DNA of 64,000 nucleotides from Verrucomicrobiota bacterium JB024 (lineage in GTDB: Bacteria > Verrucomicrobiota > Verrucomicrobiia > Opitutales > Cerasicoccaceae): assembly GCA_030673825.1 (NCBI GenBank), contig JAUTCS010000118.1, positions 1-64,000 of the forward strand, in the 5' to 3' direction. The position numbers and the translations under genes were made by a program. The notes under the pieces were generated by a model that was not told the DNA's origin, searched no databases, and saw only the letters and a program-made list of their open reading frames with translations. Position 1 is the stretch's first letter. Every line of letters begins with the position of its first letter. This document shows, piece by piece, positions 35,705 to 57,743 of the stretch.

Positions 35705-35818
35705 AACGGCAACGGCTCAGGTGGTGAAAAAACCTATCATCATGCAGAATTATCGATCAGGAAAGGGAAAAAAACATTTTCCTTTTGCCGCGCGATTGGT
35801 TTGCTGGGCCTTTGTACC

Positions 35819-37060
35819 ATGAACGATCCCTACATCCAGCAACTTTTCGCCGAACGCATTGGCGGGGCCGACTACGGCAAGTCCACCGCCATCTACAAGT
35901 TTGAGAAGATCAAGCGCGCCAAGGCCGCCGCCCGCGCCGCCCACCCCGGCACCGAACTCATCGACATGGGCGTCGGCGAACCCGACGAGATGGCCTACCC
36001 GCAGGTCGTCCAGGCCCTCTGCGACGAGGCCGCCAAGCCCGAAAACCGCGGCTACGCCGACAACGGCGGCCCCGAGTTCCGCCAGGCCGTCTCCCGCTAC
36101 ATGAAGAAGGTGTACGGCGTCGAGCTCGACCCGCAGACTGAGGTCATCCACTCCATCGGCTCGAAGGCCGCCCTGCGCATCCTGCCGCTATGCTTCATCA
36201 ACCCCGGCGACATGGCCATCATGACCGTGCCGGGCTACCCGATCTTCGGCACCCACACCAAGTACCTCGGCGGCGACGTTTACAACTGCCCGCTGACCGC
36301 CGACAACGGCTTCCTGCCCGACCTCGACGCCATTCCCGAGCACGTGCGGGCCTGCGCCAAGGTCATGGTCATCAACTACCCGAACAACCCGACCGGGGCC
36401 TCCGCCACGCGCGCGTTTTTCGAGAAGGCCATCGCCTTCGCCAAGGAGAACGACATCGTCCTGGTGCAGGACGCCGCCTACGCCTCCCTCATTTTCGAGG
36501 GCCAGCCGCTGTCCATCCTTCAGGTCCCCGGCGGCAAGGACGTCGCCGTCGAACTGCACTCCCTTTCCAAGAGCTACAACATGACCGGCTGGCGCATCGG
36601 CTGGGTCTGCGGTAACCCGCTCGTGGTCAAGGCCTTCTCCGACGTGAAGGACAATTGCGACTCGGGCCAGTTCCTCGCCATCCAGAAGGCCGCCGCCGTC
36701 GGCCTGGACAACCCGCAGATCACCGAGGAAATCAGCGCCAAGTACTCCCGCCGCATGGACCTGCTGATCGAGGCCCTCGGGGCGTCCGGCTTTGCCGTGA
36801 AGAAGCCCAAGGGCTCGTTCTTCCTCTACACCGCCATCCCCACCTCGGCGGAAAAGGACGGCCAGAAGATCGCCTTCAAGAGCGCGGAAGAGTTTTCCCA
36901 GTTCCTGATCAAGGAACTGCTCATCAGCACCGTCCCCTGGGACGACGCCGGCGCCTTTGTCCGCTTCTCCGTCACCTTCGTCGCCAAAGACAAAGAAGAC
37001 GAAAAGCGCGTCATCGCCGAAATCCGCCAGCGCCTCAGCCGCTACACCTTCAGCTTCTAG
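35819..37060 (+). CDS. dapL: LL-diaminopimelate aminotransferase
   Basis: A 413-residue PLP enzyme of fold type I that makes LL-diaminopimelate directly from tetrahydrodipicolinate, the short route to lysine and peptidoglycan. Landmarks are 'MGVGEPDEM', 'YPNNPTGA' and the PLP Lys in 'HSLSKSYNMTGWRIGW'. The sequence fits the DapL group, known from Verrucomicrobiota, Chlamydiota and plants, better than a plain aspartate aminotransferase, but the latter cannot be fully excluded. Third codon positions are strongly C/G-biased, as in the other housekeeping genes here. Confidence 0.85.
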   Translation: MNDPYIQQLFAERIGGADYGKSTAIYKFEKIKRAKAAARAAHPGTELIDMGVGEPDEMAYPQVVQALCDEAAKPENRGYADNGGPEFRQAVSRYMKKVYGVELDPQTEVIHSIGSKAALRILPLCFINPGDMAIMTVPGYPIFGTHTKYLGGDVYNCPLTADNGFLPDLDAIPEHVRACAKVMVINYPNNPTGASATRAFFEKAIAFAKENDIVLVQDAAYASLIFEGQPLSILQVPGGKDVAVELHSLSKSYNMTGWRIGWVCGNPLVVKAFSDVKDNCDSGQFLAIQKAAAVGLDNPQITEEISAKYSRRMDLLIEALGASGFAVKKPKGSFFLYTAIPTSAEKDGQKIAFKSAEEFSQFLIKELLISTVPWDDAGAFVRFSVTFVAKDKEDEKRVIAEIRQRLSRYTFSF

Positions 37061-37074
37061 CGGGTTGGGAATGT

Positions 37075-37387
37075 GGGGGCTCCGCGCCCCCACACCCCGC
37101 GCCGGGCTTACGCAGCCCGGACCCGCGGCAGCCGAGGGCTGCACCTCCGGTCCGGCGTCCGTGCTGCGCACAAACGCCGGACCGACTTTGAAGCCTTCCC
37201 TGACACAGGCTCGCCATCAGAAGAGGGTATGACTTCCGGCTGTTTTCCAAGGTGGCGACCCAGTTTTGATGCTCCCTCAGCGTTTAGTGAAAGCAGCCAG
37301 GCTGCTTTCACTAAACGCTGATGCGATGCTGCAAGCATCGAAAGTGCAGGCTGTGCCTGCTGCGGGTCTGGGCTGCACAAGCCCAGT
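37075..37387 (+). repeat. Multi-hairpin element, copy A
   Basis: A 313-bp intergenic element between convergent dapL and the LysE-type gene. In order it has a GGGGG/CCCCC hairpin; CCGGGCT/AGCCCGG; GGTCCGGCGT/ACGCCGGACC with an inner GTGC/GCAC; a perfect 21-bp stem (37277-37297 with 37301-37321); GATGC/GCATC; GCAGGC/GCCTGC; and CTGGGCT/AGCCCAG. Copies B and C lie at 41134 and 44945. The long stem has a different sequence from that in B and C but is equally perfect. Confidence 0.85.
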
Positions 37388-37408
37388 ATCCAACCAACTC
37401 CCCTATCC

Positions 37409-38086
37409 TCAGTGGCGGACGGCGAGCGGCATGAGGGTCATGGCGAAGATGAGCAGCAGGATGACGCCGCTGAGGGGGTTGAGTTTGTTGATCGAGTGCA
37501 GGCTGATGCGTTCGGGGACTTTGTTGCCGAAAACGGTGGCCAGGCCGACCATGTAGAGCCACCAGGCCGCCGTACCGACAACCGCGCTGGCTACGATGAG
37601 CAGCCACATGTGGAGGCCGGGGGAGTGGGTATTGAACCCGGCGGCCACACAAAAGGCGAGGTAGCCGAAAAAGCGCATCGGCATGCCCAGAGAGACCGCC
37701 AGCGTGCCGCGAAAAAGGCGCTTGCCGCCCTCGGGCAGCACGGGACAGGTCAGGGAGTCGGCCTTGCGGGTACGGAAGTGCACATAGCTCATGTAGAGAA
37801 AGACTGCTCCGGCCAGCGAACGGAAGACCAGAGCCAGCTTGTCCTGCAAGGGCAGCATCCACAGCACGCTCATCAACGCCACGGCGGCTGCGATCCAGAC
37901 CGCCTGGCCGAGAATGATCCCGAGGGCCGCCCGCAGACCGCCTGCCAAGCCGAATCGGCGGGTCACCTGGACGCACCAGACCGTCCCCGGCACCATGGTG
38001 ACCGCGAAAATAAAACCGAGCACGAAGCCCTTTAGCAAAACGATGGGCACAAGCAAGCAGACAGGGAACGGCGTAACTTGTGCCAC
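37409..38086 (-). CDS. LysE family translocator
   Basis: A 225-residue membrane protein with six hydrophobic helices. The N-terminal 'GFIFAVTMVPGTVWCVQV' matches the LysE/RhtB pattern, followed by 'LRAALGIILGQAVW'. The family exports amino acids or related small metabolites. The frame begins with GTG at 38086; a GTG further in (38050) is an alternative. It is convergent with dapL, with multi-hairpin element copy A between them. Confidence 0.75.
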   Translation of the reverse strand: MAQVTPFPVCLLVPIVLLKGFVLGFIFAVTMVPGTVWCVQVTRRFGLAGGLRAALGIILGQAVWIAAAVALMSVLWMLPLQDKLALVFRSLAGAVFLYMSYVHFRTRKADSLTCPVLPEGGKRLFRGTLAVSLGMPMRFFGYLAFCVAAGFNTHSPGLHMWLLIVASAVVGTAAWWLYMVGLATVFGNKVPERISLHSINKLNPLSGVILLLIFAMTLMPLAVRH

Positions 38087-38305
38087 GCCCCCTGCCCAAA
38101 GGGCAAGCGGGAAAGCCCAACGCGAACCGGACAGGTGGCATATTGGCGCAAAACCACCTGCTGGTGTGTTAAAATCTGTGTCTTTCTGCGTTCAAAGCCA
38201 ATAACCTGTTGACAGGGCTTGTACAAGAATCCACAAAGACGGGTTTCCGCGTCCCGTTTCCGCCGCCTCGGCCCAGAGGGATGCTATGCTGCATAAGACC
38301 ACGCG

Positions 38306-40069
38306 ATGGAGAATTTCGCCGACCAATGCCTTGACATGGCCCAGTCCATTCTGGGTCAGAATATTGCCGCCATCAACGCCGATGGTTCCATAACGCCCGT
38401 CGAGGGCGAGATGGGCCGTTTTGACGAGCCCGGCCACGCCGCCCTCGCCATTGGGGAGTTCCACCGGGCCACCCAACAGACCCGCTTCGGGGAGTACGAT
38501 CTGGTGGACCTGGTGGCGCGCACCGTTACCGCTCAGGCCTTTATCGAGGAGGAGGCCGAGAACGGTCTGGCCTACTCGGCTCTGGGGCTGCTGGCCTTCG
38601 GACCGTCGAAGGAGCGCAACGCCGTTTGGGAGCGCCTGCTCGAGCCGACCCGTGAGACGCTCGACCACCGCCTGCTCCAGCGCACCGACTACGACAACCA
38701 CCTGCAGGCATTCAACATCGCCAAGGCCGTCACGCGCTTCAGCATGGGCCTGTCCAAGAAGGACGAGACCGGCAAGCTGATTGACCGCTTCGTCGAGCGC
38801 ATCAACGCCAACAGCAGCGCCGGCTACTGCGACGACCATCCCGAGGGCTTCGGCGGTTGCTTCGACATTTACGGCGTCCTGAGCTTCGTTTTCATCCGCC
38901 AGGCACTCCAGCTGCACGCGAACATCCACCTGCGCGACCGCAAGCTGCCCAGCCTTCGCACCCACGCCGGCAAGTACATCAAGATGCTGCCCGACATCGT
39001 CCGCCAGGACGGGCTCGGCTGGGCCTATGGCCGCGGCATCGGCGCCTACGGCCAGATGCACTGCATCAGCCTGATCCTGCAGGCCATGCGCGACGGCTGG
39101 ATCTCCGAAGACGACAAGCCGAAGTACACCGACATCCTGCGCCGCCTGTTCCAGTTCTTCTTCACCACGTACCTCGACCACGAGCACGGCTTCCTCGTCA
39201 TTCGTGACGAAGAGCGTACCACGGCCGACACGCACACCACCCGCATGGCCAACTTTGACGCCGCGCGCTACCTGTGCCAGTGGGCCCGTCTGGCCAAGAG
39301 CATCGGCGGCAACATGGACGCCAAGCCCGCCCCCGCCAAGCGCTCCGGCCGCTTCGTGGTGTTCGACAAGAGCCACCGCAAGGAAAACGGCCTGTTCAAT
39401 TACTTTGACCCGGAAAGCAGCCTGCACGTACAGATCCCGCTCGTGAGCGCCGGTTCCGAAGTGGGCAAGAGCAGCTCCTCGCTCGCCTTCCCGCACTGCC
39501 CGGGCATCATCGACTGGCCCGCCAGCAAGCAGATACCGATCCTCCTGCCCGAGCTGCGCTTCGGTAAGGAGCGCGTCATTCCGGCCTTCTACGGCAAGAA
39601 CTGCACCACCGGCCTGGGCCTGCGCAACTCCTTCTTCTTCCGCTACGACCAGCCCGAGCTGATCACGGTGGAGGAGCGCTTCCTCAACGGACTGGGGTCG
39701 TGCAAGGTCAACTGGACCTTCCTCGGCGGCAAGATGACCAGCGAGTTCATCTTCACCGTGAAGAACCAGGTCCAGCTCGACGGTATGCGGTACATCATCG
39801 CCATCGGCGCCCCCCACAGCCGCTACCGTAGCGGCCTGACCTACACCATCGGCGAAGGTGGCCTGCGCCCCGTCGTGGTCAAGGACGACTTCCAGGCCGT
39901 CTGGGGCGAGACCGAGGTCGTGACCGAGGATCCGGAATACCGCAGCTACTGGGGGAACATTCACTACCTCCAGCACTTGGTGCGCGACCATCCGCTCATC
40001 ATGCGTCCCGGTATGAAGTACCGCCTCGTGGTCGAATTCGAGCCCGACATCGCCTTCGCCGACGCCTAG
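38306..40069 (+). CDS. Conserved-looking 587-residue protein, possible alpha/alpha-barrel enzyme
   Basis: A soluble protein without a signal peptide. The N-terminal 390 residues are mostly helical with recurring helical-pair patterns ('DPGLGWAYGRGIGAYGQMHC'-like stretch, 'FGGCFDIYGVLSF'), which recall (alpha/alpha)6 toroid enzymes; the C-terminal 200 residues look beta-rich, as in heparinase or alginate-lyase-like proteins. Strong C/G bias at third positions suggests good expression. I do not recognise a named family or a catalytic set. It stands alone, followed by a terminator at 40177. Confidence 0.7.
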   Translation: MENFADQCLDMAQSILGQNIAAINADGSITPVEGEMGRFDEPGHAALAIGEFHRATQQTRFGEYDLVDLVARTVTAQAFIEEEAENGLAYSALGLLAFGPSKERNAVWERLLEPTRETLDHRLLQRTDYDNHLQAFNIAKAVTRFSMGLSKKDETGKLIDRFVERINANSSAGYCDDHPEGFGGCFDIYGVLSFVFIRQALQLHANIHLRDRKLPSLRTHAGKYIKMLPDIVRQDGLGWAYGRGIGAYGQMHCISLILQAMRDGWISEDDKPKYTDILRRLFQFFFTTYLDHEHGFLVIRDEERTTADTHTTRMANFDAARYLCQWARLAKSIGGNMDAKPAPAKRSGRFVVFDKSHRKENGLFNYFDPESSLHVQIPLVSAGSEVGKSSSSLAFPHCPGIIDWPASKQIPILLPELRFGKERVIPAFYGKNCTTGLGLRNSFFFRYDQPELITVEERFLNGLGSCKVNWTFLGGKMTSEFIFTVKNQVQLDGMRYIIAIGAPHSRYRSGLTYTIGEGGLRPVVVKDDFQAVWGETEVVTEDPEYRSYWGNIHYLQHLVRDHPLIMRPGMKYRLVVEFEPDIAFADA

Positions 40070-40073
40070 CAGC

Positions 40074-40090
40074 CAGGGCATAGCCCTGGA
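40074..40090. repeat. Small hairpin after the 587-residue gene
   Basis: CCAGGGC and GCCCTGG form a 7-bp stem with loop ATA. No U-tract follows. Its short ATA loop resembles the other mini-palindromes in this window. Confidence 0.4.
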
Positions 40091-40176
40091 CCCGTGATGC
40101 TCATGCATCATGATTGCTGCTCCAGCCGGAGTGGCGCGCCAACGCGCGCCTTGGGCAACGGAAAAGCTTTTCTACA

Positions 40177-40207
40177 AACCGGTTCCCGCGAGGGGGCCGG
40201 TTTTTTT
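40177..40207 (+). terminator. Intrinsic terminator of the 587-residue gene
   Basis: AACCGG (40177-40182) pairs with CCGGTT (40197-40202), with inner CCC/GGG pairs, and seven T run from 40201 to 40207. Confidence 0.75.
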
Positions 40208-40267
40208 GTTGGGTGGAAATGTCGTGGCCGTACCGGCGACGTCTCAGATCATCCCACCCCAAAATCC

Positions 40268-40297
40268 TCTGTGCTCCCTGTGGCCTCTGTGGTTAAT
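40268..40297. repeat. CACAGAG-type tandem-motif repeat
   Basis: Three units of CTCTGTG or close variants at 9-10 base spacing end in GGTTAATTC. It lies in the gap before the SDR gene. Confidence 0.6.
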
Positions 40298-40355
40298 TCA
40301 AAAATCCCCCACGTGACAGCTTGCGGGGCCGCGCGGCGGCGCTATACTGGTCCAC

Positions 40356-41117
40356 ATGAGTGATTCCCCCGAACGCATCGCCATCGTCACCGGAGCCAGC
40401 TCCGGCATCGGAGAAGCCACCGTGCGCCATTTCGTATCCCTCGGTTACGGCGTGGTCGGCAACGCCCGCACCGCGCATAAACTGGAGACTCTGGAGAAAG
40501 AGCTCGGGCCTCGCTTCAAGGGCGTGGCCGGGAGCGCCGCCGAGGCCGACGTCATCGCGTCACTCTTCACCGCCGCGCAGGAGAGCTTCGGGCGCGAAGC
40601 CGACCTCGTCGTGGCCAACGCCGGGACCGGCCTGGGCGGCTCCGTCAAGGACGCCGACCTGGACAAATTTGAAACCATCTGGAAACTCAACGTCGAAGGC
40701 GCGCTGCGCCTGATGCAGGAGACAGCACGACGCTTCGTCAAAAAACAGGAGCGCGACTTCCCAAAGTCCGCCGCGGACCTGATCGTCATCGGCTCAGTCG
40801 TGGGTAAGCACATTTCGCCCTTCAGCGCAGTGTACGGCTCGACCAAGTTCGCCCTGCACTCGCTGACCGAAGGGCTGCGTCGCGAGATTGGCCCCAAGGG
40901 CGTGCGCGTCTCCCTCGTCTGCCCGGGCATCGTCTTGAGCGGCTTCCAGGACGCCGCCGGTTACAACGACGAAACCCTCAAGCACTTCCACGAAAAGTTC
41001 GGCCCCCTCATCTACGGCGAAGACATCGCCTCCGCCATCGGCCACCTCGTCTCCCTCCCCCCGCACGTCCACATCAGCGACATCACCGTCCGCCCCACCC
41101 GCCAAGACTACCCGTAA
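40356..41117 (+). CDS. SDR family NAD(P)-dependent oxidoreductase
   Basis: A 253-residue classical short-chain dehydrogenase. The cofactor loop is 'VTGASSGIGEA' near residue 10, 'VVANAGTG' follows strand 4, the catalytic Ser is in 'VIGSVVG', and the Tyr-x3-Lys pair is in 'YGSTKFALHSL'. The full catalytic set is therefore present. The substrate is unknown; the family covers sugars, steroids, fatty acids and many ketones. It is followed by multi-hairpin element copy B and then hisF. Confidence 0.9.
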   Translation: MSDSPERIAIVTGASSGIGEATVRHFVSLGYGVVGNARTAHKLETLEKELGPRFKGVAGSAAEADVIASLFTAAQESFGREADLVVANAGTGLGGSVKDADLDKFETIWKLNVEGALRLMQETARRFVKKQERDFPKSAADLIVIGSVVGKHISPFSAVYGSTKFALHSLTEGLRREIGPKGVRVSLVCPGIVLSGFQDAAGYNDETLKHFHEKFGPLIYGEDIASAIGHLVSLPPHVHISDITVRPTRQDYP

Positions 41118-41133
41118 GCGGGAGGATTTTTGT

Positions 41134-41421
41134 GGGGGCTACGCACCCCCACACCCCGCGGCAGGCGCAGCCTGCACTTTCGGTCCGGCGTCCGTGCTGC
41201 GCACAAACGCCGGACCGACTTTGTAGCCTTCCCTGACACAGGCTCGCCACAAGAAGAGGGTACGACTTACGGATGTTCCCAAAGGTGGCGACCCAGTTTT
41301 GATACTTGGGCATCAGCGATTGCGTGAACCAGTGAAGCTGGTTCACGCAATCGCTGACACGATGCTGCAAGCATCGAAAGTGCAGACTCCGTCTGCTGCG
41401 GGTCCGGGCTGCACAAGCCCG
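41134..41421 (+). repeat. Multi-hairpin element, copy B
   Basis: A 288-bp copy between the SDR gene and hisF, on the same strand as copies A and C. The long stem pairs TCAGCGATTGCGTGAACCAG (41312-41331) with its complement at 41337-41356. The hairpin that reads GCAGGC/GCCTGC in A and C reads GCAGAC/GTCTGC here, so both sides changed together. Confidence 0.85.
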
Positions 41422-41522
41422 GCATCCAACAAAACCACACTCCCCCGCCCTCTCCAGGCTTGCGCCGGGGGTCGCGGGCGTCGAGAGTTTGCCGCGTGAA
41501 AGCGACGGCAAACAGCGGGCAG

Positions 41523-42377
41523 GTGAGCGTCCGCATCATTCCGTGTCTCGATGTCCACGCCGGGCGCGTGGTCAAGGGCGTGAACTTCGTCAACCTGATC
41601 GACGCGGGCGACCCGGTCGAGCAGGCCAAGGCCTATGAGGCTCAGGGCGCGGACGAGCTGGTTTTTCTGGACATCACGGCCTCCAGCGACGAGCGGGCAA
41701 TCATGCGCGACGTGGTCGAGCGCACCGCCTCGGAATGCTTCATGCCGGTGACGGTTGGCGGCGGCCTGCGCACGGTCGAGGACATCCGTGCCATGCTCAA
41801 CGCCGGAGCCGACAAGGTCTCGCTCAACACCGCCGCTGTGCAAAACCCGCAGCTCATCCGCGAGGCCTCGGAGATTTTCGGCAACCAGTGCATCGTCGTC
41901 GCGGTGGACGCTAAACGCACGGCGTTTAATCCGAATGAGGGGGCGAGCCCCCTACGGAGCCAGGAAGGCTCCGACCCCCAAGACGATGAAAATGCCCCCG
42001 CCGAAGATGGGCGCGGCAAATGGAAAGTCTTCACCCACGGCGGGCGCAAGGAGACCGAGTGGGACGTGATCGACTGGGTGCGCGAAGTCGTGCGACTGGG
42101 CGCGGGCGAGATTCTGCTCACGAGCATGGACGCCGACGGGACGAAGGCCGGGTACGACGTAGAGCTGACGCGGGCGGTGAGCGAGGCCGTGGAGGTGCCG
42201 GTCATCGCCTCGGGTGGTGCGGGTACGCTCGACCACCTCGTCGATGTGCTGCGCGAGGGCAAGGCCAGCGCCGTGCTGGCAGCGTCGATTTTCCACTTCG
42301 GCACGTACTCGATCCTCGAAGCCAAGCAAAAGCTGGCTGACGCCGGGCTGCCGGTGCGCCTGCCACTCGAAGCTTGA
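41523..42377 (+). CDS. hisF: Imidazole glycerol phosphate synthase subunit HisF, with insert
   Basis: A 284-residue TIM-barrel cyclase that, with HisH, makes imidazole glycerol phosphate in histidine synthesis. The two catalytic Asp are in '[16 protein letters not shown]' and '[12 protein letters not shown]'. The family is usually about 255 residues; the excess is an insert of roughly 27 residues between 'VDAKR' and 'KWKVFTHGG', part of which is encoded by a REP-like palindrome (41936-41979). The GTG at 41523 gives the normal start; a GTG at 41496 would add nine residues. hisH is not in this window. Confidence 0.92.
41936..41979. repeat. REP-like double hairpin inside hisF
   Basis: GGGGGC-GA-GCCCCC (41939-41952), then TAC, then GGAGCC with GGCTCC (41956-41972). 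It has the same layout as the intergenic copies at 43540 and 49976, with different but still paired stem bases. It lies in frame within hisF and is translated. Confidence 0.75.
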
Positions 42378-42408
42378 GCCTGCCGGGCAAATCGTTAGTT
42401 ATTCACCT

Positions 42409-42816
42409 ATGAAGCTCCCCAAATTGGCCGCCGACCTGCCAAAGGAACTCACCATTCTGGCGGGCATACTCATGGCGATCGGCGCCTTCGCGCTGGTACA
42501 GACGATTGTCTCGCTGGTCACGCTCAGCGGCTTGAACGTGGATTTCAAGATCCTGCTGCTGGTGGCCGGTTACGGGCTCATCCGCCTGAAACCCTACTGG
42601 CGGCTTTTCACGCAGACGATCTCAGTCTTCGTGCTGGTGTTCTCGGCCATGCCGCTGATTATCGCGGCAGTACGCTGGACGCCGCCCTACCCGCCCGGCC
42701 TTCCCGTGGGCACGCAGATTTATTTCTGGTTCATCACGATCCTCAGCATCGGTGCCTGCGGCTGGGCGCTGTACGTGCTCAAAAAGCCGTCCGTGAGCAA
42801 GCTGTTCACGCGGTAG
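42409..42816 (+). CDS. Small membrane protein of unknown function
   Basis: A 135-residue protein with four hydrophobic segments (about residues 15-35, 46-60, 70-90 and 105-125) and a basic C-terminus. No family was recognised. It starts 31 bp after hisF on the same strand and may be co-transcribed with it, but no functional link to histidine synthesis is evident. Confidence 0.6.
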   Translation: MKLPKLAADLPKELTILAGILMAIGAFALVQTIVSLVTLSGLNVDFKILLLVAGYGLIRLKPYWRLFTQTISVFVLVFSAMPLIIAAVRWTPPYPPGLPVGTQIYFWFITILSIGACGWALYVLKKPSVSKLFTR

Positions 42817-42868
42817 TTTTTCTTTTGCTTCGCGGAATGCGTGAGCGATAGGACGTTCGCTTATTGCT

Positions 42869-42934
42869 CACACGGAGGCACAGAGGCACGGAGTTTTGAT
42901 CTTTCTTTGTGCCTTTGAGCCTTTGTGGTTAACC
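42869..42934. repeat. Inverted pair of CACAGAG-type tandem-motif repeats
   Basis: The left arm has CACGGAGG, CACAGAGG and CACGGAG units; after a short spacer the right arm has CTTTGTG, CTTTGAG and CTTTGTGGTTAA units. The two arms are imperfect complements. It lies between the small membrane protein and the convergent SufU-like gene. Confidence 0.6.
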
Positions 42935-42944
42935 TTTTCTTTTT

Positions 42945-43376
42945 TTAAACCGGCCCCACCGCGAGCAGCGCCCGCCACGGGAGCATGGCGCACTTGACGC
43001 GCGGGGGCAGGTGGCGAATACCACCCAGCGCGGCTAAGTCCTCCCAAAAGTCCACCTCGTTCGCCGCCGGTTCGGCTCCGGTGAGGAACTCACGAAAACG
43101 TCCGGCCAACGCCTGTGCCTCGGACACGGTTAGCCCGGCGATCCGCTCACTCATGAGTGAACACGAGGCCCGCAGCACGGCGCTTCCGGCGGCTTCCCAG
43201 CCCACGACGGCGATTTTTCCGTCCACTCCGGCGGCGAGGGTCAGCCGCACTTCGTCTCCTGCTTCGGGGTTCTTCGCCTCGGCGCGGTGCGTAGGCGCGC
43301 TCAGCAGGCCCTGCGCGCGCGGGCGCTTGCTGTGGTCGAGCAGGATTTCCTGATAAAGCTCCGGAGTCAGCGGCAT
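42945..43376 (-). CDS. SufU-like Fe-S assembly protein with altered cysteines
   Basis: A 143-residue protein of the SufU/IscU scaffold fold. Of the three conserved Cys only the last is kept ('RVKCAMLPW'). The first motif NPxCGD reads 'NPEAGD', and the Cys of the second is Ser ('WEAAGSAVLRASCSLM', which has a new Cys three residues later). Known SufU proteins bind Zn through these Cys plus Asp and take sulfur from SufS. It lies downstream of sufS on the same strand, so a link to Fe-S assembly is likely, but its metal site must differ. The ATG at 43376 was chosen by family alignment. Confidence 0.8.
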   Translation of the reverse strand: MPLTPELYQEILLDHSKRPRAQGLLSAPTHRAEAKNPEAGDEVRLTLAAGVDGKIAVVGWEAAGSAVLRASCSLMSERIAGLTVSEAQALAGRFREFLTGAEPAANEVDFWEDLAALGGIRHLPPRVKCAMLPWRALLAVGPV

Positions 43377-43385
43377 GGCTTTTTT

Positions 43386-43415
43386 TAACCGCAAAGGGTG
43401 CAAAGGACGCAAAGC
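43386..43415. repeat. CACAGAG-type tandem-motif repeat
   Basis: TTAACC is followed by GCAAAGG, GCAAAGG and GCAAAG units spaced 9-10 bases apart. It lies just upstream of the SufU-like gene, within the sufS to sufU gap. Confidence 0.6.
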
Positions 43416-43539
43416 TTATTTGCGGCCTGTTCATCCTGCCCACCCTCTCAGAAAAAAGCGACTGCCAGCGAGTCCGCTCCTTGGGACAACCCTTCTGCTC
43501 CCCCCCAAAGGGGCAGCATAATAGAATCCCCATTGCCGG

Positions 43540-43605
43540 GAGTAGCCGCCTTTTTGGCGGCGTAGGGGGACTTGTCCCCCTCGGTGCCAGCGGAGGTACT
43601 CCGCC
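43540..43605. repeat. REP-like hairpin element between sufS and the SufU-like gene
   Basis: GTA-GCCGCC-TTTTT-GGCGGC, then GTA, GGGGGAC-TT-GTCCCCC, then CGGAG-GTA-CTCCG. The layout matches the reverse complement of the element at 49976-50045 and the element in hisF. Confidence 0.7.
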
Positions 43606-43609
43606 CTGC

Positions 43610-44875
43610 CTAGCCGAGGAACAGGCGGCGGATTTTTTTCAGGCTGGCGACGAGGGCGTCCACTTCGGCGCGGGTGTTGTAAAAGGCGAAGGAGGCGCGG
43701 ACAGTGCCGGTGAGGCCGAAGCGCTCCCACAGCGGCATGGTGCAGTGATGTCCGGTGCGCACGGCAATACCGTCGGCGTCGAGCATGGTGCCGATGTCGT
43801 TGGGGTGGATGCCCTCGATCATAAAAGACACGAGAGCGACCTTGTTCGGGGCGCGACCATAAATGGTCAGCCCCTCAATTTGGCTGAGCTGCTCCGTGGC
43901 GTAGGCGAGCAAGTCCTGCTCCTGCGCGGCGATGGCGTCGTGACCGATGCCGTCCAGATAGTCGAGCGCGGCGGCCAGGCCGACGGCCCCGGCGATGTTG
44001 GGCGTGCCCGCCTCGAAGCGCTCGGGCAGGCCGCGATAAGTCGTCCCGGCGAAGCTGACGCGATCAATCATATCGCCGCCGCCCTGGTACGGGGGCATGG
44101 CGCCGAGCAGGTCGGCCTTGCCGTAAAGGACGCCGATGCCGGTCGGGCCGAAAATCTTGTGCCCGCTGCACACGAACCAGTCGCAGTCCAGCTCGCGTAC
44201 GTCGATCTTCAGGTGCGCGGCGGACTGGGCCCCATCCAGCAGCACGGGAATGCCGTGGGCGTGGGCCTTGGCAATGAGTTCCCTGGCCGGGTTGAGCGTG
44301 CCGAGGGAGTTGGAGGCATGACAAAAGGCGGCCAGCTTCGTGCGCGGGCCGATGAGCTTTTCCCACTCGTCCACGAGCAGCTCACCTGCGTCCGAGATGG
44401 GTGCGACCACGAGCTTGATGCCGAGGCGGGATTCGAGCATCTGCCACGGGACGATGTTCGCGTGGTGCTCCATCACGGTGAGCAGCATTTCGTCCCCGGC
44501 GGTCAGGTTAGCCCCGCCCCAGGAGCTGGCCACGAGGTTGATCGCCTCCGTCGCCCCCCGCGTGAAGACGCACTCACGCGCCTCGGCGGCGTTAAAGTAC
44601 CGCGCCACGGTCTCGCGGGCGGCCTCGTAGGCCGCCGTCGCCTCCTGGCTCAGGTGGTGGACCCCCCGGTGGATATTCGCGTGCTCAGTCGAGTAGTAGC
44701 GCTCGATCCGCTCGATGACCGCGCGCGGCTTCTGTGCCGAGGCACCGTTGTCGAGATAGACGAGCGGCTTGCCGTTGATCGTGCGCCCGAGCACCGGAAA
44801 ATCCTTGCGCCACGCCTCAACGTCCGCCCCCGGACGCTCCTCCAGCGCAGCCCCTGCCTGCTTATTTGGAATCAT
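43610..44875 (-). CDS. sufS: Cysteine desulfurase
   Basis: A 421-residue PLP enzyme (group II desulfurase) that takes sulfur from cysteine for Fe-S cluster building. Landmarks are 'YLDNGASAQKPRAV', 'TRGATEAINLVA', 'MEHHANIVPWQ', the PLP Lys in 'FVCSGHKIFGPTGIG' and the active Cys in 'RTGHHCTMPLW'. The ATG at 44875 leads into 'WRKDFPVLGRTINGKPLVYLDN', as in the family. The SufU-like gene follows after 233 bp of repeats; sufBCD are not in the window. Confidence 0.95.
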   Translation of the reverse strand: MIPNKQAGAALEERPGADVEAWRKDFPVLGRTINGKPLVYLDNGASAQKPRAVIERIERYYSTEHANIHRGVHHLSQEATAAYEAARETVARYFNAAEARECVFTRGATEAINLVASSWGGANLTAGDEMLLTVMEHHANIVPWQMLESRLGIKLVVAPISDAGELLVDEWEKLIGPRTKLAAFCHASNSLGTLNPARELIAKAHAHGIPVLLDGAQSAAHLKIDVRELDCDWFVCSGHKIFGPTGIGVLYGKADLLGAMPPYQGGGDMIDRVSFAGTTYRGLPERFEAGTPNIAGAVGLAAALDYLDGIGHDAIAAQEQDLLAYATEQLSQIEGLTIYGRAPNKVALVSFMIEGIHPNDIGTMLDADGIAVRTGHHCTMPLWERFGLTGTVRASFAFYNTRAEVDALVASLKKIRRLFLG

Positions 44876-44944
44876 TCTTAGTTGAGAACCTAGCTCAAAA
44901 CCAGCAACCCGCAAGCCAAATGCCGGGAATGTTTTGTGGTTTGT

Positions 44945-45257
44945 GGGGGCTACGCACCCCCACGCCCCGCGGCAGGCAAAGCCTGCACTTTCGGTCCAGC
45001 GTCCGGGCTTCGCCCAAACGCCGGACCGACTTTGTAGCCTCTCCTGACGAAGGTCCGCCCAAATCAGTATGGGACACGTATGGAGTCGAAAAGGGGGCGA
45101 CTCAGTTTGGATACTTGGGCATCAGCGATTGCGTGAACCAGTGAAGCTGGTTCACGCAATCGCTGACACGATGCTGCAAGCATCGAAAGTGCAGGCTGTG
45201 CCTGCCGCGGGTCCGGGCTGCGTAAGCCCAGCGCGGGTGCGGGGCGCGCAGCCCCGC
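44945..45257 (+). repeat. Multi-hairpin element, copy C
   Basis: The third copy lies between the EEP-type gene and sufS. The core (44945-45231) matches copy B closely, including the identical 20-bp stem (45122-45141 with 45147-45166). The inner hairpin GTGC/GCAC of A and B is GGGC/GCCC here. An extra hairpin, GCGGGGC/GCCCCGC, follows at 45239-45257. Confidence 0.85.
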
Positions 45258-45259
45258 CC

Positions 45260-46243
45260 TCAAAAGGCCAGCTCGACGCAGACGGGGCGGTGGTCGCTGG
45301 CCGTGAGGGAGTCGGGCAGCAGGTCGATGACGCGGGCCGAGCCGAGGACAATGCGCTGGGCCAGGGCCGGGGAGGCCAATAAAAAGTCCACGCGCTCGTA
45401 GAGGTCGCGCTTGCGGTAGTGGAAGGTCCAGGCCTCCCCGCGCGAGTCCACCGCCTCGACGAATTGAGCCAACTCGCGGTCCCCCACCCGCAGGAAACGC
45501 CGCAGCGCGGAGCTGTCGCGGGCGTCGTTGAAGTCGCCCGTGACGAGGTAATTGTCCGTCTGCGGGTCGGGGAAGGCCGCCCGGATGCGGTCACGGGCAG
45601 CCTGGGCCTCGGCGGCACGTTGGCTGGCGGCCTGCGGGTCGTCGTCGCGGACGGTCCAGCGGCTTTTCAGGTGGACGACAAAGAGCGTCCAGGGCACTCC
45701 GTCGGTTTCGAAGCCCACCTCCAGCAGGCCACGGCGGACGGCCTCACGTTCGCCGCCGAGGGTGAACGCCAGCCGGTCGTGGGTGATGACGCGAGCGAAG
45801 GGCAGACGCGAGAGCACGGCGACACGGCGCTCCTCGTCCGGCCCCATAAGGATCGCGGTGTGCGGGTAGTCCAAGCCCTCGGCCTTCAAATCGCGCTGAA
45901 GCTCCTCCAGGTACGCCGGACCGCCCACCTCCTGCACGGCCAATACATCGGCATTGGCGGCGCGTATGCACGCCCGCAGGGCGGTTTTCTCGTCCTCGGG
46001 CTTGGGGTAATCCTCGCGCCAATGCCCGCTCGCCATGCGGTCCATCGACAGGTAGTTGTTTAAATTATACGTCGCCACCCGCACCGTGTCGGCGGCGAGG
46101 CCGAGCGGGAGAAGCACACTCAGCACGACGAGCAACGAGGCCAGCCTCCGCCACGCCGGGACACCCCGGACATGGTTCGCGGATTGCCCGACCGAATGCG
46201 GATTTGCGGAAAAATCGAGGTTATCCGTGCCCATCCGCGTCAT
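45260..46243 (-). CDS. Exported endonuclease/exonuclease/phosphatase family protein
   Basis: A 327-residue protein. After a leader it has a hydrophobic signal ('LASLLVVLSVLLPLGLAAD', ending near residue 51) and then the EEP fold: 'VATYNLNNYL', 'VLAVQEVGG' (metal Glu), 'VVHLKSRW', 'LVTGDFNDA' (Asp/Asn) and 'TASDHRPVCVEL' (Asp/His pair). The catalytic set is complete. Exported EEP proteins are nucleases or phosphoesterases. The long stretch before the signal lies in a short repeat, so the true start may be the ATG at 46234 or further in. It is the upstream neighbour of element copy C. Confidence 0.85.
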   Translation of the reverse strand: MTRMGTDNLDFSANPHSVGQSANHVRGVPAWRRLASLLVVLSVLLPLGLAADTVRVATYNLNNYLSMDRMASGHWREDYPKPEDEKTALRACIRAANADVLAVQEVGGPAYLEELQRDLKAEGLDYPHTAILMGPDEERRVAVLSRLPFARVITHDRLAFTLGGEREAVRRGLLEVGFETDGVPWTLFVVHLKSRWTVRDDDPQAASQRAAEAQAARDRIRAAFPDPQTDNYLVTGDFNDARDSSALRRFLRVGDRELAQFVEAVDSRGEAWTFHYRKRDLYERVDFLLASPALAQRIVLGSARVIDLLPDSLTASDHRPVCVELAF

Positions 46244-49975: not shown

Positions 49976-50045
49976 CGGGGAGCCCCCGCTGGCACTGAGG
50001 GGGCAATGCCCCCTACGCGGCCAGACAGGCCGCTACCCCCGGCAA
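49976..50045. repeat. REP-like hairpin element after dxs
   Basis: CGGGG-AGC-CCCCG, then GGGGGC-AAT-GCCCCC (49999-50013), TAC, GCGGCC/GGCCGC (50017-50033), TACCCCCGG. It begins immediately after the dxs stop and has the same order of parts as the elements in hisF and at 43540. Confidence 0.75.
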
Positions 50046-53373: not shown

Positions 53374-53592
53374 GCCCGCGAAGCCACGCGAAGGGACGCG
53401 AAGCAGGGTCAGTCCCTTTGGACTGCGGCAGCTAAAGTCTCAACTGCTCGGCTTTTTGCTTTTCACACGGATCACACGGACGCCGCAGCCAACGAAAAAC
53501 ATCCATGTTATCCGTGGTTGAAGAAATTTCTCTCTCTCCCGAAACGAAGCCGTCCGGCGACCTTCGCGCCTCTTCGCGTGCCTTCGCGGGCA
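53374..53592. repeat. Nested inverted tandem-motif repeats
   Basis: An outer pair of GCGAAG-type arrays (53374-53405 and, inverted, 53560-53592) encloses an inner inverted pair of CACGGAT/ATCCGTG-type arrays (about 53463-53483 and 53500-53520). Units are 9-10 bases long. The stretch lies between the HpsJ-like gene and the convergent RsbW-type gene and contains no gene. Confidence 0.6.
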
Positions 53593-57712: not shown

Positions 57713-57743
57713 CCTTCGCGGCACTTCGCGTGCCTTCGCGGGC
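57713..57743. repeat. CTTCGCG-type tandem-motif repeat
   Basis: Three CTTCGCG units at 9-10 base spacing end in GGGC, matching the right outer arm at 53560-53592. It lies just past the 3' end of the esterase gene. Confidence 0.6.

Follow-up and report, generated by a model that had tools for sequence, protein, structure and literature searches.

The described systems closest to the repeat treated here are REPs and BIMEs, in which short palindromes are arranged in composite units with many intergenic copies, at the 3' ends of genes. PMC12306157 describes how REPs affect attenuation, the stability of mRNA and translation close to the stop codon, and among the Verrucomicrobia, PMC3733652 describes palindromic intergenic repeats, i.e. 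GTAG-tagged REPs, in Opitutus terrae. MITEs and REPINs are likewise small, non-autonomous and dispersed, with partly complementary ends. By definition, a REPIN consists of two REPs plus a RAYT. Another relevant process is template switching between inverted-repeat arms, which in the account of PMC8604942 homogenizes the arms and inverts the spacer with no need for selection on a fold, and for which that source gives an arm limit of >9 bp in yeast. Quasipalindromes in E. coli, as treated in PMC7202029, constitute a related system.

Within the window (the whole 64,000 nt stretch analyzed here), three intergenic copies of a unit of ~290 bp, named A, B and C, were found on the + strand at 37072-37386, 41131-41422 and 44942-45231, in agreement with the earlier sequence-only reading. 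The left half of the unit is a GGTCC-type hairpin of ~15 pairs with an inner stem. It is followed by a variable spacer and by the right half, where a hairpin of 21-22 bp with a loop of 3 nt, taking up ~45 nt, precedes the short GC-rich hairpins that close the element. Copy A is located between convergent genes, namely an aminotransferase gene (35801-37060, +) and a gene at 37409-38086 (-), as called with a simple GC3 script. It comprises an outer left hairpin TGTGGGGGC..GCCCCCACA (37072-37094), an extra hairpin CCGGGCT..AGCCCGG (about 37102-37120), the hairpin of the left half CGGTCCGGCG..CGCCGGACCG (37148-37184), the box of the right half GGTGGCGACCCAGTTTTGATG (37251-37271), the long hairpin of 21 bp with its 3 nt loop (37277-37321), and a right end with the hairpins GATGC, GCAGGC and CTGGGCT (37324-37386). 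Copy B is flanked by an SDR gene (40356-41117, +) and a His_biosynth gene (41460-42377, +), with the left-half hairpin at 41181-41217, the long hairpin at 41313-41357 and the right-end hairpins at 41360-41422. The corresponding parts of copy C are found at 44992-45028 (inner stem GGGC/GCCC), 45122-45166 (arms as in copy B) and 45169-45231. This copy does lie upstream of a sufS-like Aminotran_5 gene (43610-44914, -), as had been pointed out, but equally directly past the stop codon of the neighboring Exo_endo_phos gene (45260-46243, -).

All the stem variants quoted in the sequence-only reading are present in the three copies. The supposedly common ordered set of hairpins is not identical throughout, since the extra hairpin of copy A has no counterpart at that place in B and C. 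The long stem is perfect over 21 bp in copy A, whereas in B and C it has 20 Watson-Crick pairs and is closed by a T-G pair. The claim that stems differ and yet stay paired has an exception in the last hairpin of copy C (CCGGGCT/AGCCCAG), where a C-A mismatch leaves one stem change uncompensated. Long-range pairing of the element ends, which appears in the predicted fold of copy B, was rejected as a family feature: many copies have a left end CACCCTCG or CACCCCCG against an unchanged right CGAAAGTG, so that, as read from the alignment, end-to-end pairing is not kept.

The right-end core occurs 51 times in this genome (G000), 52, 21 and 16 times in the congeners G001, G002 and G003, respectively, and twice in a genome from another genus of the family (G005), with no occurrences of a control pattern. 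Forty-seven of the 51 cores were retrieved from G000, all from the three congeners and one of the two from G005, while a slightly wider core pattern gave 4 further sites. At up to 3 mismatches, this genome contains the right-half box 43 times (control 0). Searches with the element as query were scored for 40 out of 82 candidates in G000 and for 13 candidates per genome in the cross-genome comparison. The covariance model R1, scored for 19 candidates per genome in 177 genomes of the order, gave strong matches only within the genus (19 out of 19 in each of the four members); of the other 173 genomes, nine gave weaker matches, the strongest being that of G005 (E 2e-12). The two halves of the unit are found joined or singly and end modules interchange, i.e. 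palindromic modules appear in varied intergenic combinations, as is characteristic of BIMEs. The best reading is that A, B and C belong to a new, genus-specific, composite and palindrome-rich family of intergenic repeats, BIME-like and non-autonomous. A large REP/BIME-type unit had been one of three suggestions made from the sequence, and is the one that fits best; the REP tag is absent (see below). As regards the palindrome of 20-40 bp in many intergenic copies that is typical of REPs, the copies are many and intergenic, and a near-perfect hairpin of 21-22 bp, ~45 nt in all, is set in a composite of ~290 bp. Its stem sequence is hypervariable.

At each of 141 sites, the best hairpin close to the core was taken to be the long stem, and 28 sites were dropped for lack of a usable one (19 without any, 9 with short or spurious ones), and the pairing percentages therefore apply to copies that retained it. 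In the 113 remaining copies, 2310 out of 2366 pair cells are Watson-Crick, 21 are GU, 5 AC and 30 other. Distinct stems number 35 out of 43 in G000 and 42 out of 43 in G001; conserved are the fixed length of 21-22 bp, the outer T.....ATT and the loop-side CAG. Among the 73 distinct 21-bp stems, 1512 of 1533 cells are paired, against 72.8% when arms are swapped between copies. For 46 distinct copies picked for a near-perfect stem, the figure is 98.6%; shuffling lowers it to 80.2%, and sliding the partners to 37.5% or less. In G001, 13% of sites in the unpaired box beside the stem depart from consensus, rising to 21% in the more diverged half, while non-Watson-Crick pairs make up 1.1-1.2% in the stems, which shows that pairing has been kept up and is not merely recent. 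The copies in G003, which are possibly inactive, have 9.6% non-Watson-Crick pairs. Conservation of the stem sequence itself at orthologous sites was rejected, as orthologues are no closer than random partners. With stems registered on the loop, those at nine orthologous sites of G000 and G001 differ at 8.0 out of 20 pairs versus 8.2 for random partners (P 0.42), and those at 12 sites over all genome pairs at 8.5 versus 8.8. Nearest neighbors inside G000 differ at 1.4 pairs.

That paired change implies a maintained fold, of RNA or single-stranded DNA, fails as stated, and the paired changes themselves lend no support to a new family of non-coding RNA. In helix 1, cells changed on both sides number 225 versus 6 changed on one side, with 10 wobble cells in all. 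Compensatory change by way of tolerated G-U intermediates was not recognizable: such a route is open to 120 out of 333 changed Watson-Crick cells, near the one third expected without preference, and GU makes up 21 of the 2366 cells. Furthermore, where close stems have loops differing at all three positions, the loops are reverse complements in 16 out of 49 pairs; shuffling gave a mean of 5.1, and none of 1000 shuffles had as many. The 6-bp GATGC hairpin beside the long stem has a single pair of reverse-complementary loops in 141 copies (GGTA in 12, TACC in 1), and this near absence of loop inversion agrees with the limit of >9 bp for arms given for yeast in PMC8604942. Taken together, the lack of preference for G-U routes, the rarity of wobbles and the inverted loops point to template switching between arms in DNA. 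The long hairpin apparently owes its lasting self-complementarity to copying between the arms at the DNA level, and not to protection of an RNA fold. In the mechanism we propose, such copying would be the main process, at times inverting the loop, and recopying or gene conversion would spread the right halves and homogenize them inside each genome. Template switching alone is no explanation for the fixed length of 21-22 bp and the conserved bases. It also counts against the proposal that copies with identical stems show an inverted loop in 0 out of 18 pairs with non-identical loops. GU moreover outnumbers AC by 21 to 5 (p = 0.0025 without correction for common descent), a hint that one strand is under some selection. 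The likeness to quasipalindromes as described in PMC8604942 lies in arm homogenization and spacer inversion; the loci there are single and scattered, whereas here one dispersed family offers 113 comparable stems. As a whole, a BIME/REP-type non-autonomous repeat, maintained by template switching and recopying and surviving where promoters are spared, is the explanation we favor, at a probability of about 0.62. A more radical variant, in which the hairpin is a replicating palindrome whose arm and loop in each round template the other arm in a single-stranded hairpin, the family spreading and renewing its perfect palindrome by hairpin priming with no Y1 transposase, seems improbable.

The same stems could be read as those of a structured non-coding RNA or 3' UTR RNA family, with a selected fold and ordinary compensatory evolution. 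The strand-dependent GU excess and the conserved stem length would suit this, as would a covariation score of 0.430 (0.095 when shuffled), the 23 pairs in which both partners have changed, and a strong predicted fold (copy B, z = -10.4 on the + strand). This fold is, however, just as strong on the - strand (z = -12.2; 0 of 200 shuffles equal in each), the orientation relative to genes is not fixed, and two copies are inverted in place between species. One-sided intermediates are moreover nearly absent, and the unpreferred G-U routes and the inverted loops likewise count against selection of a fold. Comparison with Rfam gave no family for the element: at the gathering score the window yielded only a tRNA and ten other loci nothing, while relaxing to E up to 10 gave three matches below threshold, none relevant, among them mir-1756 on the stem of copy C (24.8 of 100 bits). 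We regard the RNA reading as unlikely. The family represents a clear natural case where strong covariation, which is usually held to prove selection for an RNA fold, is explainable by template switching in DNA.

Members of the family are situated at the 3' ends of genes, for the most part where two genes converge. Out of 96 sites, 65 are convergent, 29 tandem and 2 divergent, compared to 9, 23 and 9, respectively, of 41 gaps in the window, and the stop codon of the converging right-hand gene is found 60-125 nt past the GATGC core in 75 out of 82 cases. Gene context ruled out a gene leader or riboswitch, bearing out the earlier remark that no single type of gene has the element as its leader. 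If copies survive where promoters are spared, the transcripts of both neighbors would run into strong hairpins, and REP-like effects would be likely by analogy, such as attenuation, protection of mRNA 3' ends or a damping of translation close to the stop codon. The position bias may reflect tolerance only. The bias, the closeness of the element's end to a stop codon and the presence of elements at about 12 coinciding sites in G000 and G001 would also be explained by an element that selection has retained for a bidirectional role at 3' ends, as a domesticated terminator, attenuator or supercoil insulator between convergent genes. Under the favored reading, the coinciding sites, six of them matched on both flanks and six on a single one, as sorted by eye from 31 listed pairs, need inheritance or a strong site preference. 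Selective removal of insertions elsewhere would nevertheless produce the same bias, and most of the 49-53 sites are unshared. Site A has only a left-half relic in G001, and at site C in G003, the element is missing, with 129 nt between the aligned homologous genes versus 457 here and flanks too diverged to give exact ends. An intrinsic terminator was likewise rejected, as the six terminator-like sites at 36900-45400 (shuffled mean 7.7) are all outside the three copies. Domestication appears unlikely. The dispersed copies and the site lacking the element in a congener would be compatible with the suggested non-autonomous mobile element, for example a MITE moved in trans by some transposase, its hairpin rebuilt each round by fold-back synthesis in a single-stranded intermediate. 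Left and right ends, themselves palindromes, match inversely over ~28 bp (query 25-52), two groups (e.g. L001-type and L006-type) contain copies whose loop plus arm is the reverse complement of another copy's arm plus loop, and the possibly inactive G003 copies have the 9.6% of non-Watson-Crick pairs given above. No target duplication was seen beside the three copies, however; the longest shared word was 3 nt at A and 4 nt at C, with none of at least 3 nt at B. A copy-time mechanism alone does not explain the near-perfect arms of diverged G001 copies, and no larger element with cargo was seen in ~1.5 kb flanks. The one transposase family searched, Y1 (PF01797), does not track the element: in six genomes, four matches were found in G000 (three over the cut-off) and five in G005, with none in G001, G002, G003 or G006, and the eight module patterns tried were absent from the nine Y1 loci examined, so a RAYT partnership was rejected. 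For the element, neither of the REPIN parts was found, and a MITE seems quite unlikely. A last reading, chance palindromes or an assembly artefact, to which the several G000 contigs that start or stop inside copies might point, is already refuted by the 53 sites on a single 3.75 Mb contig of G001 and the zero pattern controls.

Compared to REPs and BIMEs, the favored BIME-like repeat thus persists in three of four genus members where no Y1 transposase was detected. The tests applied to its 113 hairpins in four congeners, i.e. the G-U route, loop inversion and the short hairpin as internal control, would be usable also for other palindromic repeats and candidate non-coding RNA families. Lastly, in contrast to the REPs of Opitutus terrae (PMC3733652), the element is not a GTAG palindrome. 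The REP tags GTAG and CGTC abut the stem (within 2 nt) in one of the 113 copies each, and occur within 12 nt of it in 15 and one, respectively. Palindromes containing GTAG are present in this genome as separate repeats, e.g. at 43560-43610 and 49976-50040 in the window.

All three copies of the hairpin-rich intergenic repeat claimed by the sequence-only reading are present on the + strand of the window, at 37072-37386 (copy A), 41131-41422 (copy B) and 44942-45231 (copy C). They follow a common plan. The left half comprises a GTGGGGGC hairpin, a GCAGGC-type hairpin and a GGTCC hairpin containing an inner stem. After a spacer comes the right half, in which a box resembling GGTGGCGACCCAGTTTTGATG precedes the long hairpin (21 bp, 3-nt loop); its right end carries a GATGC hairpin as well as GCAGGC-type and CYGGGCT-type hairpins. 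The claimed common order of hairpins holds for this plan, apart from one extra left hairpin in copy A, and the claim that stems stay paired between copies stands in general, apart from a mismatch in the last hairpin of copy C. The stems of copies B and C finish in a T-G pair. By Pfam, the neighbors are Aminotran_1_2 and a gene without family assignment (A), SDR and His_biosynth (B), and Aminotran_5 (sufS-like) and Exo_endo_phos (C). Terminator-like or promoter-like sites were looked for in the interior of the three copies, and none were found. Elsewhere, left-half hairpin variants have different yet largely paired arms (ATAAAGG.., ATTCATGG.., ATTCAGG..; loci L095, L006, L126 and L212), and in several copies (L023, L093, L122, L300) a module TCCGGCTGGACCAGC lies within or adjoins the GCAGGC end hairpin, as if a palindrome were nested in a palindrome.

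The element is a real, well-populated new family of BIME-like type. A search with copy B, in which 40 of the 82 candidates were scored, matched many contigs of the JB024 genome. The right-half box, with at most three mismatches, occurs 43 times in JB024, 15, 2 and 1 times in the congeners G001, G002 and G003, and 0 times in another genus of the family (G005) and in the control. The corresponding counts are 19, 1, 3, 0 and 0 for the left-half core, and 51, 52, 21, 16 and 2 (control 0) for the right-end core. G002 and G003 mainly harbor a sister subfamily with a box like GGGGTGCAACYCAGTTTGGATGC and an unchanged hairpin plan. When a covariance model of the element was run against 177 genomes from the order (19 candidates scored per genome, stricter filters), matches were strong in the four genus members and weaker in nine further genomes. 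No Rfam family reaches threshold for the element copies; three matches were listed below it. Several JB024 contigs break inside copies (L005, L020, L017, L019, contig starts).

Out of 141 sites, 113 kept a long stem of at least 18 bp, 19 had none, and nine were short or spurious. Stem length is 21 bp in 87 and 22 bp in 14, together 101 of 114, a count that includes one spurious site. Among 73 distinct 21-bp stems, 1512 of 1533 cells (one base pair in one copy) are paired, versus 72.8% after swapping arms between copies; in 46 aligned copies, picked for at most two mismatches, the figure is 98.6%, versus 80.2% shuffled and at most 37.5% slid. In this alignment, 21 of the 22 helix 1 pairs show a both-sided change in at least one copy. 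The family in G003 looks as if decaying, since 9.6% of stem pairs there are non-Watson-Crick. Some copies are without the long palindrome (L175, L168, L144, L115). GATGC flanks it on either side in intact copies, so that its loss by slippage is possible.

Template switching in DNA, by which one arm of the long hairpin would be copied onto the other and the arms would stay paired, explains these paired changes better than a selected RNA fold. It is supported by the predominance of both-sided changes in helix 1 (225 cells, versus 6 altered on one side), with wobble pairs in 10 cells overall. Moreover, of 333 changed Watson-Crick cells, 120 were reachable through G-U, while 128 were flips and 85 other transversions; the wobble route is therefore not preferred, which again supports arm-to-arm copying. 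So does the situation in G001, where 13% of the sites in the unpaired box are diverged against 1.1% non-Watson-Crick pairs, the values in the more diverged half being 21% and 1.2%. The excess of GU over AC in long stems (21 versus 5, p = 0.0025, copies treated as unrelated) may be a trace of selection on the + strand.

Further support for arm-to-arm copying comes from the loops, which are often reverse complements where stems are close. Among non-identical loops with at most two stem differences this was the case in 22 of 124 pairs (shuffled mean 7.4; 0 of 2000 shuffles gave as many), and among loops differing at all three positions in 16 of 49 (shuffled 5.1; 0 of 1000). A loop occurs together with its reverse complement in seven of 40 stem clusters, four of which, read by eye, contain the three-position cases, and in two groups the loop and right arm of one copy are the exact reverse complement of another's left arm and loop. 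However, identical stems gave no inverted loop pairs (0 of 18), one-position differences only a weak excess (6 versus 2.3; 29 of 1000 shuffles), and the loop pairs compared are not independent, as the copies are related. In the 6-bp GATGC hairpin the loop is almost never inverted, in keeping with the requirement for arms of more than 9 bp reported for yeast (PMC8604942). Part of this hairpin's constancy is due to ascertainment, as the site-finding pattern demanded it.

About 12 sites in JB024 and G001 coincide by flanking genes (six by both flanks, six by one). At nine of these, with stems registered on the loop, 8.0 of 20 pairs differ, versus 8.2 for random partners (P 0.42), and stem differences to the nearest neighbor are 1.4 within JB024 and 2.4 within G001. 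When left half and spacer were compared in 12 pairs, the orthologue was the clear best of 53 in three (scores 77-154, median 16); in a fourth it also ranked first, at a lower score (49), and the remaining pairs were unremarkable. By this comparison some copies are inherited although their stems differ, which points to right halves having been recopied or converted within a genome. Independent insertion at favored places is possible for the other coinciding sites. At two of the roughly 12 coinciding sites the element is inverted in place, with flanking genes alike on both sides (L015/L097 versus L099; L095 versus L243). Among relatives, G003 has no element at the site of copy C, and in G001 a relic of the left half, with a different stem, occupies the site of copy A.

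Using a simple GC3-based gene caller, genes were called on both sides of 96 sites, with 19 more incomplete. The 96 comprise 65 convergent, 17 + 12 tandem and two divergent sites; the 41 gaps of the window as a whole comprise nine, 23 and nine, respectively. In 75 of the 82 cases with a converging right-hand gene, the distance from its stop codon to the GATGC core is 60-125 nt, which places the stop near the element end. This bias fits a 3'-end role and the clearing of promoter insertions alike, without separating the two. Like BIMEs, the element is modular, palindromic and intergenic, with its copies situated at gene ends. It does not belong to the tagged REPs, and in three of the four genomes it is not tied to a Y1 transposase. 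JB024 has four Y1 transposase-like matches (L184, L186, L188, L190), three above cut-off, and the three congeners have none. The element may be MITE-like; a target duplication was looked for beside copies A, B and C and not found, and a search for an autonomous partner, covering the Y1 family, gave none. A literature search, with most subscription journals outside its reach, returned for this family or Verrucomicrobia REPs the GTAG repeats of O. terrae alone, reported as REPs (PMC3733652).

Other repeats occur nearby. At 43560-43610 and 49976-50040 there is a distinct composite repeat that combines GTAG-containing palindromes with adjacent GGGGC hairpins, and similar stretches adjoin several element copies. 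At 40070-40135, in the tandem gap ahead of the SDR gene, and at locus L136 there are members of a third family, likewise modular (GCAGGGCATGCCCTGCACCCGTGATGC-like) and seen in G001 as well. Lastly, CGCGAAG/CTTCGCG motifs are repeated in convergent intergenic gaps at 53380-53400 and 57720-57740.
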